Origin: Liolophura sinensis
Taxonomy: Eukaryota > Mollusca > Polyplacophora > Chitonida > Chitonidae
Reading direction: 5' to 3'
Assembly: GCF_032854445.1 (NCBI RefSeq)
Contig: NC_088307.1
Location: 5,144,001-5,208,000 of the forward strand
DNA: 64,000 bases
Position numbers and translations under genes: made by a program. Shown here piece after piece: positions 30,601-41,749 of the stretch. Positions within the stretch are counted from its first letter, which is position 1. Each line of letters opens with the position of its first letter. A model generated the notes under the pieces. It was given only the letters and a program-made list of their open reading frames with translations. It searched no databases and was not told where the DNA came from.

Positions 30601-33600
30601 TTTATTTGCAAACCTTTTTGCACAAGTTTGCTGTTCACATGATATATATGCGTCATTAAGGCTGGCGGTGTTGTCATGGAACTACATGTTCACCGCATAG
30701 TCATGATGCTATCGCCAGGATTCCTTCATCTGAGCCAGGCTGTCGTTTGTTTACATTTGTAAGATGTGTCCGAGCTTGAACTTACAAAGTGTTGGTTTTT
30801 TTCCTCTTTTAGCGGTCTAGAGTGTGCGATGAACAGAATCTAATACTCGTGTTTAATTCATATGAAAGCTATGAAACTCGCTGAGGAAATTTGGCATTTT
30901 GCATATGTTGCGAGCATGAAATGAACACTCGTGCCAGATTGTGCAGTTTCTCATCAGTTTGCGCACACTTTGTATAATTATGGACTAAAATCAACATCAG
31001 TTACATCGTGACCTTAAATCTAATTCCGTGTCACCTATTTGCCTGATTTGATACCCCAAAACTCTTGAAATTGCTAAAATGGCTTAAATTATGTTACCGT
31101 CCCTTTCTCCGTGAAGTTGTATCAGAATATATGGTATCTGAGAAAAACGTAAACCTTATATTCAGGTCCATTGTTGTATTTTTCAAATCAGTCAACAAAT
31201 CAATCCTCAGACCTAAGAAGTACAGAATCAGATGACGTGCCATAATGATTGTGTTTCCCGTTTTCACAGGCCTTCACCATGCCGGAGTATTTGAAAAAAC
31301 GTTTTGGTGGAAACCGCTGCCAAATTTACCTGGCAACACAAAATATGCTTCTTTTTGTCTTTGTGAAGTTATCGGTAAGTTGCCTTCTTGTCATTTTCGG
31401 AAAAGATCTTATTAAATAATAAAAAAAAGTGAGGGAGCAGTTGAAATGTGGCTTGCATCAGACAGTTATTTGCTTTTTTTCCCTTCAGGCTCAACTCAAC
31501 TTCAGGCTATCCAAGTTCCCCCATCTCCAAATTCCTCCATCTCCAAGTTCCCCCATCTCCAATCTCCTCCACCTCCAAGCTCCTCCATCCCCGAGTTCCT
31601 CCATCTCCAAGCTCCTCCATCCCCGAGTTCCTCCATCTCCAAGCTCCTCCACCTCCAAGCTCCTCCATCCCCGGGTTCCTCCATCTCCAGGTTCCTCCAT
31701 CCCCGAGTTCCTCCATCTCCGAGTTCCTCTATTCCCAAGCTCCTCCATCTCCAAGTTCCTCTATTCCCAAGCTCCTCCATCCCCGAGTTCCTCCATCTAC
31801 AAGCTCCTCCACCTCCAAGCTCCTCCATCCCCGAGTTCCTCCAACTCCAAGCTCCCTCATCCCCGAGTTCCTCCATCCCCAAGTTCCTCCATCGCCAAGC
31901 TCCTCCATCTCCAAGCTCCTCCATCTCCAAGCTCCTCCATCTCCAAGTTCCTCCATCTCCAGGTTCCTCCATCCCCGAGTTCCTCCATCTTCAAGCTCCT
32001 CCATCCCCGAGTTCCTCCATCTCCAAGTTCCTCTATTCCCAAGCTCCTCCATCCCCGAGTTCCTCCATCTCCAAGCTCCTCCATCCCCGAGTTCCTCCAT
32101 CTCAAAGCTCCTCCACCTCCAAGCTCCTCCATCCCCGGGTTCCTCCATCTCCAGGTTCCTCCATCCCCGAGTTCCTCTATCTCCAGGTTCCTCTATTCCC
32201 AAGCTCCTCCATCTCCAAGTTCCTCTATTCCCAAGCTCCTCCATCCCCGAGTTCCTCCATCTACAAGCTCCTCCACCTCCAAGCTCCTCCATCCCCGAGT
32301 TCCTCCAACTCCAAGCTCCCCCATCCCCGAGTTCCTCCATCCCCAAGTTCCTCCATCGCCAAGCTCCTCCATCTCCAAGCTCCTCCATCTCCAAGCTCCT
32401 CCACCTCCAAGCTCCTCCATCCCCAAGTTCCTCCATCGCCAAGCTCCTCCATCTCCAAGTTCCTCCATCCCCGAGTTCCTCCATCTCCGAGTTCCTCTAT
32501 TCCCAAGCTCCTCCATCTTCAAGTTCCTCCATCCCCGAGTTCTTCCATCTCCAAGCTCCCCCATCCCCGAGTTATTCCATCTCCAGGCTCCTCCATCCCC
32601 GAGTTCCTCCATCTCCGAGTTCCTCCATCCCCGAGTTCCTCCATCCCCGAGTTCCTCCATCTCCGAGTTCCTCTATTCCCAAGCACCTCCATCTTCAAGT
32701 TCCTCCATCCCCGAGTTCCTCCATCTTCAAGCTCCTCCATCCCCGAGTTCCTCCATCTCCAAGTTCCTCTATTCCCAAGCTCCTCCATCCCCGAGTTCCT
32801 CCATCTACAAGCTCCTCCACCTCCAAGCTCCTCCATCCCCAAGTTCCTCCATCGCCAAGCTCCTCCATCTCCAAGTTCCTCCATCCCCGAGTTCCTCCAT
32901 CTCCGAGTTCCTCTATTCCCAAGCTCCTCCATCTTCAAGTTCCTCCATCCCCGAGTTCCTCCATCTCCAAGCTCCCCCATCCCCGAGTTCCTCCATCTCC
33001 AGGTTCCTCCATCTCCATCTCCAGGTTCCTCCATCTCCAAGTTCCTCTATTCCCAAGCTCCTCCATCTCCAAGCTCCCCCATCCCCGAGTTTCTCCATCT
33101 CCAAGTTCCTCCATCCCCCGAGTTCCTCCAAGTTCCTCTATTCCCAAGCTCCTCCATCTGCAAAGTTCAACCAAAATCTCAACTACTGCCATGCAAGAGA
33201 CATATTCAGTATGCGACACAAGTATGTTCAGTTAAAAGTTAAAGGAAAGAGTATATTGTGTAAATGTATGTTTACCCCCACAATTTGTACAGGCGGAGAT
33301 ATACGCGGGTTCTATCATCATACAACAGACGCTGGGGTGGAGCCTGTACCCTTCTGTTCTCATGTTACTCATCATCACAGCCTTCTACACACTTGTCGGT
33401 TAGTTTCCCTTCATCGCCAACAACGGAAAATAACATTCAGTTGTGGCCCTTGACAAAGACAGGTATAGCGCCATCTGGATGTTGTGTAAGGAAGGATAAC
33501 CGAGTGGTTTAATTCAATATGCTATGTCATTGAGTAATGCCCTACATCACTGAGTTGTGTTCTCTTCGCCAAAAATCTGGATGGCGCTATGCCTGTCTTG

Positions 33601-36600
33601 GTCAAGGGCTATAGCTGAGTGTTGTTTACCACTGTATATAATTTTACAATATTTGTAAATAATCTTACATTGTTTCTGCATTGTTCTGTCACCTTTGAAC
33701 ACGTCTATCTTGTAATAGTTCTCGTCTAGCTTTCAAGCGATTTTTGTTACCTTTTGAACAATTTGCCAGCCTTTCCAACCATTACGTCACTTATATATCA
33801 CCTGTTACTATATTTAATCTACAATGGCATCAATGGATAACATCGTCTGGCATTAACGCTAAATATATCCTTGATTGCCTTTATCATCAAAGGATTTACT
33901 GATAAGAAACTTTTTTGTCTCTTGCATCCTGACATGTAGTGGATTGTCCGATACTAGCTCACTGGCTACATATCTTTCCCACGGACTAACCTTTGTTTCT
34001 GAAACATAGAATTATTATGATTATTAATATTATATGATTATTTAACTTTTTGATCATATTTCCTCATTTTCCCAACGTTGCCATGGTTTCAGGTGGGCTT
34101 ACCGCCGTGATCTACACTGACGTGTTACAGACAGTTGTCCTGCTGCTCGGGGCTGTTATACTGGCTATTCTGGGTAAGGCTTAGTCTCACTTAACTCAGT
34201 AATCAACTAGCACAGTTCTATAGGCTGTTAAGGCTTAGTCTCACTTAACTCAGTGATCAACATAGCACATATCTATAGACTGTTCAGGTACAGTTTTACT
34301 TAACACAGGGTCCACCCAGCACATTTCTGTTTAGGCTCAGTCTCACTTAACTCAGTGATCAACTAGCGCACTTCCATGGACTGCTAAGGCACTGTCTCAC
34401 TTTTCTCAGTGACCAACTAGCACATTTCTATAGACTGTTAAGACACAGTCTAACTTAACCCAGGGTCCTCCAAGCACCTTTGCTATAAACTTTTAAGGCA
34501 CAGTCAGACTTAATTCAGGGTCCACCAAGCACCCTGTCTATAGACTGTTAAGCCACAGTCTGACCTAACTCAGGGTTGAACTAGCACCTTGTCTATAAAC
34601 TGTTAAGGCACAGTCTGACTTAACTCAGGGTCCTCCGAGCACCTTTTCTATACACTGCTAAAGCAGAGTCTGACTTAACTCAGGGTCCTCCGACCACCTT
34701 GTCTATAAACTGTTAAGGCTCAGTCTCACTTAACTCAGGGTCCACCAAGCTCCTTTTCTATAAACTGCTAAGGTACAGTCTCACTTAATTCAGGGTACAA
34801 CTAGCACCTTGTCTATAGACTGTTGAGGCACCGTCTGACTTAACTCAGTTTCCAACTAGCACATTTCTTTAAACTGTTAAGGTTAGCCCTAGGATTGCGC
34901 TAGGGTCAGCTGACTTGGTAGAATCGGCACCAGGTTTACACGTGCATGTACTGTAACTTGAGTTGTCTTGCTAAAGTCAGATTTTGTACCCTTAACTGAC
35001 TTGTAGGTAGTAAGATCTCACCAACCTCAGCCTCACTGAAGTCAGATCTAGGAATCGCTATTTGTAACAACGATGAGACAAGTGAAATTATTCAAAACTT
35101 AATTGCTCCACGTCTCCGTATCACCCAAATAGCAGGTATAGCCCTTCAGTTAAACCAATCAGATTTATTATAACATTTATAAATCAGCTGCACTTTTATT
35201 CTGCTAACCAGTGATAATCAGTTCATTTTCTGTAGGCTTTGTCGAGGTCGGAGGTTATCAGGAGATGGTGACGCGTTACATGGCAGGTGTTCCCAACGTA
35301 ACAGGCATTAGTGGTAACGATAGCAACAACAGTTGTTTACTTCCGGACGAGAGTGCTTTCCACATTTTTCGACCGATCACAGACCACGCTTATCCCTGGC
35401 TCGGGACTTTCTTTGGGGCCAACATCCTGTCCGCCTGGTACTTCTGCACCGAGCAGGTAACCAATCGTGTAATCTTTCCATAACAAATAGGTTTTGACAG
35501 GTTAGGAATAACGTGTCTGCACAAATTGGTAAGAGGTGGTCCCAATAACCCACCTACAATAAAAACATAACTTATTTACAAATAAATTTAGAAGTTTGCA
35601 TTATTTTTATATTTTTTTTCCTCCTTTAAATGTACATGTACTTTCTATGAACACTGTGAATTGCTTGATCTTGAACAGGTTCTCGTGCAGCGCTCCCTTG
35701 CGGCAAAGAACCTTAACCACGCCAAGGCGGGCAGCATTTTGGCCGGCTATATGAAGATTCTGCCCATATTCCTGATGGTCTGGCCTGGAATGATCAGCCG
35801 GGCGCTTTATGCTGGTAAATAGAGTTGGTTTTCAACACTTTACAAATTGAAACCTAGGTCGTTGCTAACTTAGTGAAATGGGGTGATGCGGTCTCTCATC
35901 GAAACCACTATACGTTGGTCTATCGGGTGAATCCTTCCCTGGCGTTAGTCTCAACCCATTTGATTGCATTCTCGAATACAGCTTTGCTAGTTTGGGCTTA
36001 ATATAAGTCAGAAATATAGGTTTGTCAGACTCCCGGTACCCTAGGAGCATGGGTGTCCACCAACAATAAGTCTTAAAACCGTAGCATAAATGTAAAAGTC
36101 CTGAAAAAGGCGTTAAGCACCAATCAAATAAATCAACCATCTGGTTGCGGAATCAACTGAGACTTGTTCTGAGACGCAGGGTTTGTCTGGAACATGCGGG
36201 GAGCGATATACTTTCATCAGGGCTCTATAATAATTCAGAATGTGTTTCAATATGAATACAAAATTCTTGATAACAGCGTAAAGCCCCAATCAATCAACTG
36301 ATCATTCAGTCGCCCAGTTCAGCGAAGCCAAGTGTAATTTTTGCACACGGCAAAGGTCACGATGTCTTTTCCCCAATCTTGGCCCCGTCAACAAAATCCA
36401 AGGCTCCGGCAACATGTGTTAAGAACATACTCTACGTTGCCATAGATGTGAGAGTCATCTTAACCTATACGGTCACTTTGTGAACCAGTCTCTCTGCCAC
36501 GCGCAATTTCTGTGTCTATATACTGAATGGTCAATGTTGATTTCAGATGACGTTGCCTGTGCTGACCCGGTCAGGTGTAAGGCGGTTTGTGGAAATCCTC

Positions 36601-39600
36601 GGGGGTGCTCCAACATCGCGTACCCTCTTCTGGTCATAAGGCTCATGCCCATAGGTAAGGGAGATTGGATGTCTTCACTGAGCAACCAGATTCACGATTG
36701 CTGCCATCGCCGCAAGTGAAGCTGACACCATATTAAACAATGTACAACCGTGTCAAGCTGATCCGCTAGTGATGGTTCACAAATGATCACACGTAACCGG
36801 CGAAATCCGTCCTCTTATCAGTTTACCTCAGGTTTCCACTGTAACTGAAAGAAAACCCATGTGTTTCAGGTTTGCGCGGGTTAATGCTGGCTGCCATGGT
36901 AGCCGCCTTCATGAGTTCGCTGACGTCCATCTTTAACAGTGCCAGTACCGTCTTTACCATTGACATGTGGAAGCGGGTTAGGAAAGGCGCCACAGAAAAG
37001 GAACTCATGGTCGTAGGCAGGTAAATGGGCGTTTCATGCTGAAGTATTTTGTATTATATACCTGTGTAAACGAGCCCTGGAGCACTGGTCCCTTTGCATT
37101 AATTGTTCCCATGACAGTGTTTATTAAATGTGGTGACAACACATGCAGAATTTGAGTAAGTTTAGACAAGTGATGTTTAACGCAATGTATTGTATTGTAT
37201 TTATTTATTTGATGTTTTACGCCGTGCTCAAGAATATTTCACTTATACGACAGCGGCCAGCATTATGGTGGGAGGAAAACGATGTGTAATTAACATCACT
37301 GCAGAATTCACTTTATAAATAAGATTACAAATACCATGGTGTTCATGGGCTTATAAGTCGCTACTTTTTACGCATTAACATGAGCTGTTAGAATAAAACC
37401 CCAACAAGAAGCCGTGTTTCCCCGGTTACGTATGACCATTTGCCAACTGTCACACTGTCGTCGCTGCTCTGATTTTACTCTATGTGCTATAATCTTCTAT
37501 ATTCAATGGATCAGTGAATCTGTGGATCAGAGCATTATGCAGTCAGCTTTTTGGTCGTGGTTTGTTAGCGTGTGATCAGTAACATGACAATAAAACAATT
37601 CCATGTAATTAACGTGTTTTTATTTCTTGTAACGATTGACAATTATTTACTACTTCCAGGATATTTATTGTGGTCTTTGCCGCCGTCAGCGTTGCCTGGT
37701 TACCAATCGTTGCTACGGGACAGAGTGGTCAACTGTTCAATTACATCCAATCAGTGAGCTCATACTTGGCACCTCCTGTTCTCGCGTGCTTCACCGTAGG
37801 ATCGCTGTGGGCCAGGATAACGGAACCGGTAATCTCACAGTCGGTGTAACACGACAAATTTATGTACAGAAAATGGCTTAAAAGAATACCCTTCTGATGA
37901 TATGCGTGAATTTTATTCATACAAATAATTCTGTGATCAGACAGTCCGTATACCTATACTGGGATCAGACAGTCCGTATACCTATAATGGGATCAGACAG
38001 TCCGTGTAACTATACAGAGGTTACGAAGGTGTTTGCATGAGGAAATGAATAAAACTTATAAGTTGATTTGCGTACGTGGAAAGGTCTGCCAGCAGACTGG
38101 TCGTGGGTTTCTTCCGGGCTCTGCCCGGTTTCCTCCCACCATAATGCTGGCCGCCGTCGTATAAGTGAAATATTCTTGAGTACGGCATAAAACACCAATC
38201 GAATAAATAAATAAAAGTTGATTCAAACGCTTTTCTTTTTTTAAATACTTTGACAGTGAACCATGCATCATAATGAAATTTTAAATTATCACTGTGGACA
38301 TGTCTTGCTCTGTGGAATCCATACCAGGAGTCTATATATGTTATGACAACTCTTTAGGGCAGAGATCTAGATAGGATGTGATCTATATTGGATGTGATCT
38401 ATATTGGATGTGATCTATATACGATGGGATCTATACTGGATGGGATCTATATACGATGGGATCTATACACGATGGGATCTATATACGATTGGATCTATAT
38501 TGGATGGGATCTATATTGGATGGGATCTATTTTGGATGGGATCTATATACGATGGGATCTACATACGATGGGATCTATATACGATTGGATCTATATGGGG
38601 TAAGGATCATTAAACGATCTTGACCCCTATAGGACTGGAAAATAAACGCCGATTATAATCAGAATGCTTCCAACTCTAAGTATCTGTTGTGGAGCGGACT
38701 CAGTATTGTTGTTGTCTGATTCGTTTTGCTTTGCTTTCTGCTGTACATTGATTTTCCTTCTGCATCTACCCCAGGGTGCCTTCTACGGCCTCCTGGTAGG
38801 CCTAGTCCTGGGGGTGATTCGGATGGTCTGTGACTTTATCTGGACGTCCCCGGGGTGCGGACAGCCGGACTATCGCCCGGGGATCATAGCTAACTTCCAC
38901 TACCTCCATTACGCCATGTTTCTGTTCGCTGTCAGCATCATCGTCACTATTGTTGTCAGTTTGTTAACTACACCTATACCCGGCGAACAGGTGAGTAAAC
39001 CTCATTGTTCTAAGCTTGTTAACTACACATATACCTGATGAACAGGTGAGTAAACCACATTGTTCTAGCCTTGTTAACTACACCTAAACCTGACGAATAG
39101 GTGAGTAAACCTCATTGTTCTAAGCTTGTTAACTACATCTATACCTGACGAACAGGTGAGTAAACCACATTGCTCTAAACTTGTTAACTACACCTATACC
39201 TGACGAACAGGTGAGTAAACCACATTGCTCTAAACTTGTTACCTACACCTCTACCTGACAAACAGTTGAGAAAAGGCCCATTGTTCTCAGTTTGTTTACT
39301 ACACCTCTACCTGACAAACAGGTGAGAAAACGCTCATTGTCTTAGTTTGTTAACTACACTAATACGTGTCGAACAGGTGAGTATAAACCATATTGTTCTC
39401 ATTCGTTAACTACACTTATCCCTTATACCTGTGGAACAGGTGAGTATAAACCATATTGTTCTCATTCGTTAACTACACTTATCCCTTATACCTGTGGAAC
39501 AGGTGAGTATAAACCATATTGTTCTCATTCGTTAACTACACTTATGCCTGTCGAACAGGTGAGTATAAACCATATTGTTCTCATTCGTTAACTACACTTA

Positions 39601-41663
39601 TTCCTTATACCTGTGGAACAAGTGAGTATAAACCATATTGTTCTCATTCGCTAACTACACTTATGCCTGTCGAACAGGTGAGTATAAACCATATTGTTCT
39701 CATTCGTTAACTACACTTATCCCTTATACCTGTGGAACAGGTGAGTATACACCATATTGTTCTCATTCGCTAACTACACTTATGCCTGTCGAACAGGTGA
39801 GTATAAACCATATTGTTCTCATTCGTTAACTACACTTATCCCTTATACCTGTGGAACAGGTGAGTATAAACCATATTGTTCTCATTCGCTAACTACACTT
39901 ATGCCTGTCGAACAGGTGAGTATAAACCATATTGTTCTCATTCGTTAACTACACTTATCCCTTATACCTGTGGAACAGGTGAGTATAAACCATATTGTTC
40001 TCATTCGTTAACTACACTTATGCCTGTCGAACAGGTGAGTATAAACCATATTGTTCTCATTCGTTGACTACACTTATCCCTTATACCTGTGGAACAGGTG
40101 AGTATAAACCATATTGTTCTCATTCGTTAACTACACTTATGCCTGTCGAACAGGTGAGTATAAACCATATTGTTCTCATTCGTTAACTACACTTATCCCT
40201 TATACCTGTGGAACAGGTGAGTATAAACCATATTGTTCTCATTCGTTAACTACACTTATGCCTGTCGAACAGGTGAGTATAAACCATATTGTTCTCATTC
40301 GTTAACTACACTTATCCCTTATACCTGTGGAACAGGTGAGTATAAACCATATTGTTCTCATTCGTTAACTACACTTATCCCTTATACCTGTGGAACAGGT
40401 GAGTATAAACCATATTGTTCTCATTCGTTAACTACACTTATCCCTTATACCTGTGGAACAGGTGAGTATAAACCATATTGTTCTCATTCGTTAACTACAC
40501 TTATCCCTTATACCTGTGGAACAGGTGAGTATAAACCATATTGTTCTCATTCGTTAACTACACTTATCCCTTATACCTGTGGAACAGGTGAGTATAAACC
40601 ATATTGTTCTCATTCGCTAACTACACTTATGCCTGTCGAACAGGTGAGTATAAACCATATTGTTCTCATTCGTTAACTACACTTATCCCTTATACCTGTG
40701 GAACAGGTGAGTATAAACCATATTGTTCTCATTCGTTAACTACACTTATCCCTTATACCTGTGGAACAGGTGAGTATAAACCATATTGTTCTCATTCGTT
40801 AACTACACTTATGCCTGTCGAACAGGTGAGTATAAACCATATTGTTCTCATTCGTTAACTACACTTATGCCTGTCGAACAGGTGAGTATAAACCATATTG
40901 TTCTCATTCGTTAACTACACTTATGCCTGTCGAACAGGTGAGTATAAACCATATTGTTCTCATTCGTTAGCTACACTTATGCCTGTCGAACAGGTGAGTA
41001 TAAACCATATTGTTCTCATTCGCTAACTACACTTATGCCTGTCGAACAGGTGAGTATAAACCATATTGTTCTCATTCGCTAACTACACTTATGCCTGTCG
41101 AACAGGTGAGTATAAACCATAATGTTCTCAACTTATTAACTACAGCTATACATGGCGAACAGGTGAAAAAATTCATTCTCCTTTTGTTAACCACGCCTGA
41201 TGAACAAGTAAGCAATGATTAATCAATTAATACAATACCACTAAGCCTATTGCTGGTCAGAGTGAATAAGAATAAGATCAAAAATTTCACAAGGCGTCAT
41301 GAATGTTTTAACTGCAGTGCAAGGTAAACAGTTGCAGTATCAAATGTAAGACAAGCCGTTCATTAAAGCAAATGTTTGTTCGATTATGTACACTACGGTA
41401 TTTGAAAAAAAAGTGCGCAAAACAATATAATCTGCCCATAAAAATAGTTCCGTGGAGTTAAGTCGATGGTGTAGAAAAAACTCAAGTCGTGCAGTAGCCT
41501 ATATCTTTTCTCTTTGCAGTTGGTGGGAGTCACGTGGTTTACGCGTGAAGTTCCGCCCCCCGAACCGAAGGCGGTATCCGACGAAGAAAGCGAAACGGAT
41601 GGGCTGGTGAAAACTCTGGAGGTGGTGGATAGGCCGACAGAGGTGGCCAATATCAATAGTGAG

Positions 41664-41749
<86 letters not shown>

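Follow-up and report, generated by a model that had tools for sequence, protein, structure and literature searches.

How does the intron behind a coding exon come to hold dozens of further copies of that exon's end, each with its splice donor, and do these copies serve a purpose? The question is raised by a 64,000-nucleotide stretch of the chiton Liolophura sinensis (contig NC_088307.1, positions 5,144,001 to 5,208,000; in the following the window, whose coordinates are used below, all features of the gene under study being on the + strand). The array found there is, with good confidence, a boundary minisatellite of the kind described as "mirage", grown from a short tandem duplication that spanned an exon end and the start of its intron, and probably tolerated since splicing would take the first donor.

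Results and Discussion

Judged by homology, the host gene is an SGLT of the SLC5A1/2 type. Using phmmer, the 216 bp exon at 38775-38990 aligned with residues 484-553 of an SGLT1 structure chain (E 2.3e-17), and for further exons of the window matches to the SSF family were obtained. Following the numbering of the initial annotation, this exon is called exon 13. It ends with ...GEQ and CAG|GTGAGT, and the true 5' splice site GTGAGT (38991-38996) is assigned from the sequence and from its stop-free join to exon 14. The latter (41520-41658) exhibits the acceptor TTTGCAG and the donor A|GTGAGG and continues the frame of exon 13. About 7 bases past its donor (GTGAGG at 41659) a perfect (AT)40 run is located (41666-41746). 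A 1.6-kb CCAAGTTCCTCCATC array, open in three forward frames, occupies positions 31511-33130 and probably sits in an intron of the SGLT gene. The same gene contains a second array of ~55-bp units (34174-34882), which starts at the donor of the exon ending at 34173. As a second boundary copy it was rejected, since it only touches the donor and its exon part is matched by 78 of 500 shuffles.

Behind exon 13, 38 donor anchors follow the true donor at 38991 head to tail and reach 41213, with a spacing of 45-63 bp. The amplification of about 38 copies into the following intron, initially annotated with an end at 41215, is thereby confirmed. The unit size of mostly 55-63 bp is in the minisatellite range, and the head-to-tail arrangement is that of mirages. 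The exact motif CAGGTGAGT (CAG|GTGAGT) is present in 32 of the 38 units and GT is retained in 37, in line with the statement that almost all units keep the donor. Within the window the motif occurs 44 times at one mismatch or less, compared to 12.6 +/- 3.8 occurrences (maximum 25) in 100 dinucleotide shuffles. Each unit comprises ~40 coding bases and the first intron bases. All 40 positions of the last 40 exon bases align to the array and none of 500 shuffles aligned equally well; homology to the last 30 coding bases had been noted before, and while the exon copy stands, its length has to be corrected to ~40 bases. From this alignment and the stop-free donor join, the unit appears to combine exon and intron across the splice site, as do mirages. 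A 439-base probe searched against the 609-Mb assembly gave at least nine matches, all nine inside the SGLT array, a search that sets a lower bound for repeats.

The units are not equally alike. Units u01-u07 (38991-39376, 55-56 bp) are diverged, with 25-28 identities to the final 30 bases of the exon. The homogenised core u08-u36 (39377-41105) comprises 29 units, in which a 56-bp and a 63-bp form partly alternate, and TRF reports a higher-order period of 119 bp (56 bp plus 63 bp). Units u37-u38 (41106-41213) form a diverged 3' edge, in which u37 has kept the exon-like GGCGAACAG. Outside the donor, pi amounts to 0.035 in the core compared to 0.248 in the flank units. The homogeneous centre described earlier is thus found again, and diverged edges around a homogenised centre are also a property of mirages.

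Such a structure may be explained in a few steps. A short tandem duplication spanning the exon-intron boundary would found the minisatellite, which would then grow and be partially homogenised via unequal exchange or slippage. A duplication over the donor would leave the protein unaltered provided that splicing takes the exon-adjacent donor, since every later copy is intronic. If an array donor replaced the true one, an in-frame stop codon at 39036-39038 would be met: it is brought in by all seven array donors worked through, and the remaining donors lie downstream of it. We infer that splicing takes place at the first donor; the array would then be neutral and tolerated for this reason. Introns near the examined exons are rich in minisatellites, of which a small share crosses or touches a donor; of the 24,250 SGLT intron bases sampled, 4863 lie in arrays.

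In a survey, 90 exon ends chosen regardless of arrays were covered: 30 SGLT ends (three exons at 10 paralogue loci, the window's own gene being excluded) and 60 of 132 kinesin rows (stop-free inside, profile end < 318, first 60 by list order). By TRF and the letters of some loci, a procedure with which misses are possible, arrays crossing or touching the donor were observed at 3 of 30 SGLT paralogue ends (L011, L012, L014) and 2 of 60 kinesin ends (L081, L083). Three of the 90 donors carry significant exon copies (95% interval 0.7-9.4%), and two more arrays touch the donor. The formal TRF rule yields five donors and two acceptors of 90; the five include L014 exon 13, whose array begins 14 nt behind the exon, and L014 exon 12 goes undetected. 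Concerning the two acceptor rows, a T-rich array covers the acceptor AG in L016, and the array of L080 stops at least 24 nt before the AG. In a symmetric test of exon edge against flank (300 shuffles), 4 of 90 donors (L012, L014 exon 12, L083, L049) and 1 of 90 acceptors (L008 exon 11) were positive. Since acceptors also carry copies, a donor preference is not established by this survey: 5 versus 0 would give p 0.06, and 5 versus 2 gives 0.44.

Single old partial copies were observed in L049 downstream of 554 (a kinesin exon end) and in L008 upstream of 1619 (the start of SGLT paralogue exon 11), and are perhaps remains of two-copy boundary duplications. In the kinesin locus L083 (454-968), the 63-bp unit resembles a mini-exon composed of CTCTCCAG, 36 in-frame bases (DMSYSVSMSYLE) and GTAATG, and could be exonised without a frame shift.

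Arrays of this type were also found on one sampled chromosome of the assembly, C1. Tandem CAGGTRAGT triples number 1159 and those of the reversed motif 291 (ratio 4.0); for single sites the counts are 19,957 and 7,605 (ratio 2.6). Acceptor-like motifs and their reversals behave similarly, with 1035 versus 284 tandem and 75,526 versus 34,712 single occurrences. In the listed part of C1, at least 18 donor-motif clusters face at least 4 reversed-motif clusters; the 18 donor arrays represent every cluster among the matches listed (C1 0-18.84 Mb). Eight of these 18 adjoin an exon end supported by homology (E < 1e-3), and seven of the eight copy the exon significantly. The homologues comprise an SNF2-type helicase, presumably Mot1-like, an iron hydrogenase-like and a BMS1/Tsr1-like protein, 2-oxoglutarate dehydrogenase, ABCC, a choline transporter, RNA polymerase III RPC1 and a fucosidase, whose array (L026) touches the donor only and whose match (E 5.9e-4) falls under Pfam's own cut-off. 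For the other 10 arrays, an exon homologue at E < 1e-3 was not found. L020 matched polycystin-2 at 0.037 only; this weakly matched exon seemingly ends at a GC donor, CAG|GCGAGT, before the array.

Of 19 sites selected for an array in contact with an exon end or behind it, 11 had a significant exon copy (0 of 500 shuffles): the SGLT array of the window, L012, L014 exon 12, L021, L027, L028, L032, L033, L034, L035 and L083. In the same 500-shuffle test it was not significant for L014 exon 13, L011, L020, L025, L026, L029 and L081. By eye, the arrays of L011, L020, L026, L029 and L081 start at the exon end, and that of L025 lies 70-120 bp into the intron. Judged by their letters, the tandem units TTTCTGCAG|GTGTAAAGTACAACATCC... 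at C1:16815639, C1:16829850 and C1:23633208 look like copies of an acceptor-side boundary.

These counts bear on the possibility of an active targeting, in which a mutational hotspot, linked for example to transcription, would direct arrays to exon-intron boundaries. Counter to mere tolerance, boundary-type motifs, donor-like and acceptor-like, are in excess over reversed motifs, and the tandem excess exceeds the single-site ratios. The single-site counts include array copies, so that the ratios do not decide between the two views, and the tandem excess was not accepted as proof. Supported exons adjoin 8 of 18 donor arrays compared to 0 of 19 control edges at E < 1e-3 (Pfam, longest frame; best control matches 0.005 and 0.03), and 4 of 18 compared to 0 of 19 if Pfam alone is counted. 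The controls were 12 arrays hand-picked from ~23 listed reversed-motif clusters; of their 24 edges, four outside the fetched piece and one inside its own array were omitted. One cluster left out, at C1:92961139, shows CAGGTGAGTGGAC in its letters and thus resembles a donor array. For ten donor arrays the query was a frame picked by hand, for eight it was one joined frame or several, with some frames omitted, and six were additionally searched in PDB; as the exon searches were unequal, the comparison favours the donor arrays. Against targeting, array coverage drops towards exons when distances are taken from the ends of profile matches. Downstream of the kinesin matches it is 3.4% in the first 40 nt and 10-12% at 240-400 nt; on the upstream side it rises from 1.8% within the closest 35 nt to ~8% at 245-350 nt. 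Profile matches may stop short of the exon end, so this thinning may partly represent remaining exon. Overall, we regard active targeting as improbable.

Even less probable is a functional donor array, in which U1 snRNP bound to many copies would buffer or delay splicing or protect the transcript in the manner of a sponge or of telescripting; buffering, delay and a U1 sponge had been proposed in the initial annotation. Its sole positive evidence is the good pairing with the 5' end of U1, offered by donors whose GT is intact in 37 of 38 units. Among the 38 array donors, 29 were calculated to pair at -14.1 kcal/mol, slightly better than the true donor (-13.8 kcal/mol). Use of these donors, in contrast, would lead to the stop at 39036, and in an array kept for U1 binding the donor should be conserved above the rest of the unit. 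This was not observed. Over 17 donor arrays, variation of the donor 9-mer relative to the remaining columns has a median of 0.55, compared to 0.62 in 10 control arrays found identically with the reversed motif (p = 0.94); one of the 18 donor arrays and two of the 12 control arrays gave no usable alignment. For the GT pair by itself, the median is 0.92 of the other columns' rate, compared to 0.29 for the corresponding column pair in the control motif (p = 0.42). The suggested check, whether donor bases mutate less than the rest of the unit, therefore revealed no excess constraint, and the matched comparison rejects donor conservation as a sign of selection.

The SGLT array itself behaves alike. 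In the core, donor pi is 0.008 compared to 0.035 elsewhere, and 16 of 37 other 9-column windows are equally low. In the flank units the values are 0.194 and 0.248, with 8 of 38 windows equally low. Only the figure for all units pooled (0.057 versus 0.118; as low in 1 of 37 windows and 852 of 10,000 random column sets) leans opposite to core and flanks taken apart, and it mixes the two zones.

It is more unlikely still that the intron itself was gained by tandem duplication, a documented model according to the available part of PMC4974935. Similar to that system, a splice boundary was tandemly duplicated here, and the AG|GT needed by the model is present in most units. In contrast to it, the chiton intron bears no sign of newness. 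By eye, all 10 fetched paralogues have a donor-like GT within ~25 bases of the matching exon end, so the intron does not appear peculiar to this gene and looks older than the array; moreover, the acceptor at 41520 lies ~300 bp past the array and is not an array copy.

A false expansion during assembly is equally improbable: tandem arrays are error-prone, the HiFi depth is given as 14x in the accessible part of PMC11068029 and the same assembly contains an apparent mitochondrial concatemer (C99), but the mean HiFi read of 8.3 kb stated there exceeds the 2.2-kb array, which has 16 distinct sequences among its 38 units and diverged edges, in a window without N.

The 108-kb contig C99 shows seven cox1 matches (Pfam) at intervals of ~15.5 kb, a pattern probably due to concatenation of the mitochondrial genome during assembly. 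The order around cox1 we take to be nad3-nad2-cox1-cox2-atp6, which is of molluscan and not of amphioxus type.

The boundary minisatellite thus preferred has known relatives. In amphioxus, minisatellite-like duplications of exon-intron boundaries were described as mirages for Adh3, BflGb6, BflGb9, TnC and PGBD5 in the available portions of PMC3087553 and PMC3902484. Similar to the chiton array, many of their units keep AG/GT and the cluster edges escape homogenisation. For the amphioxus mirages, regular splicing was reported to be undisturbed according to RT-PCR (PMC3087553, in part). As to size, the two haplotypes of the globin BflGb6 are given with 6 and 3 units, each of 150-160 bp, and Adh3 with units of 10-72 bp. 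In contrast, the chiton array belongs to a mollusc, has 38 copies with a higher-order period, and is accompanied by arrays in several unrelated genes of the genome. Human segmental duplications also contain boundary minisatellites, with ~30-bp units; as far as the text at hand of PMC2812944 goes, the variable repeats have a mean of 4 units, occur in recent paralogues and can yield alternative splicing or new introns. The chiton copies, in comparison, seemingly are all intronic.

No title on boundary arrays in molluscs was found among open-licence literature, which is a weak absence, and a term search of the available text of a chiton genome comparison (PMC12005716) returned neither "tandem repeat" nor "tandem duplication" nor "minisatellite". 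The novelty hence seems to lie in the mollusc host and in the apparent frequency.

Conclusion

The frequencies observed permit a tentative extension, which we put at somewhat below an even chance: boundary minisatellites may be common in this chiton genome, affecting a few percent of donors and possibly thousands of introns, with an origin independent of amphioxus. If this is true, introns of the SGLT type, in which dozens of donors as strong as the true one, or slightly stronger, stand behind it, would be natural experiments on the choice of the first donor and on the movement of exon ends. Since many array donors match the true donor by U1 pairing, the rule that the 5'-most donor wins could be tested from existing RNA-seq. 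In the searchable literature, mirages have so far been described for individual genes of amphioxus, and related boundary repeats for segmental duplications of the human genome. The presence of mirages in unrelated genes of one mollusc suggests that they may arise wherever introns are rich in minisatellites, and the boundary arrays show a possible route by which exon ends shift.
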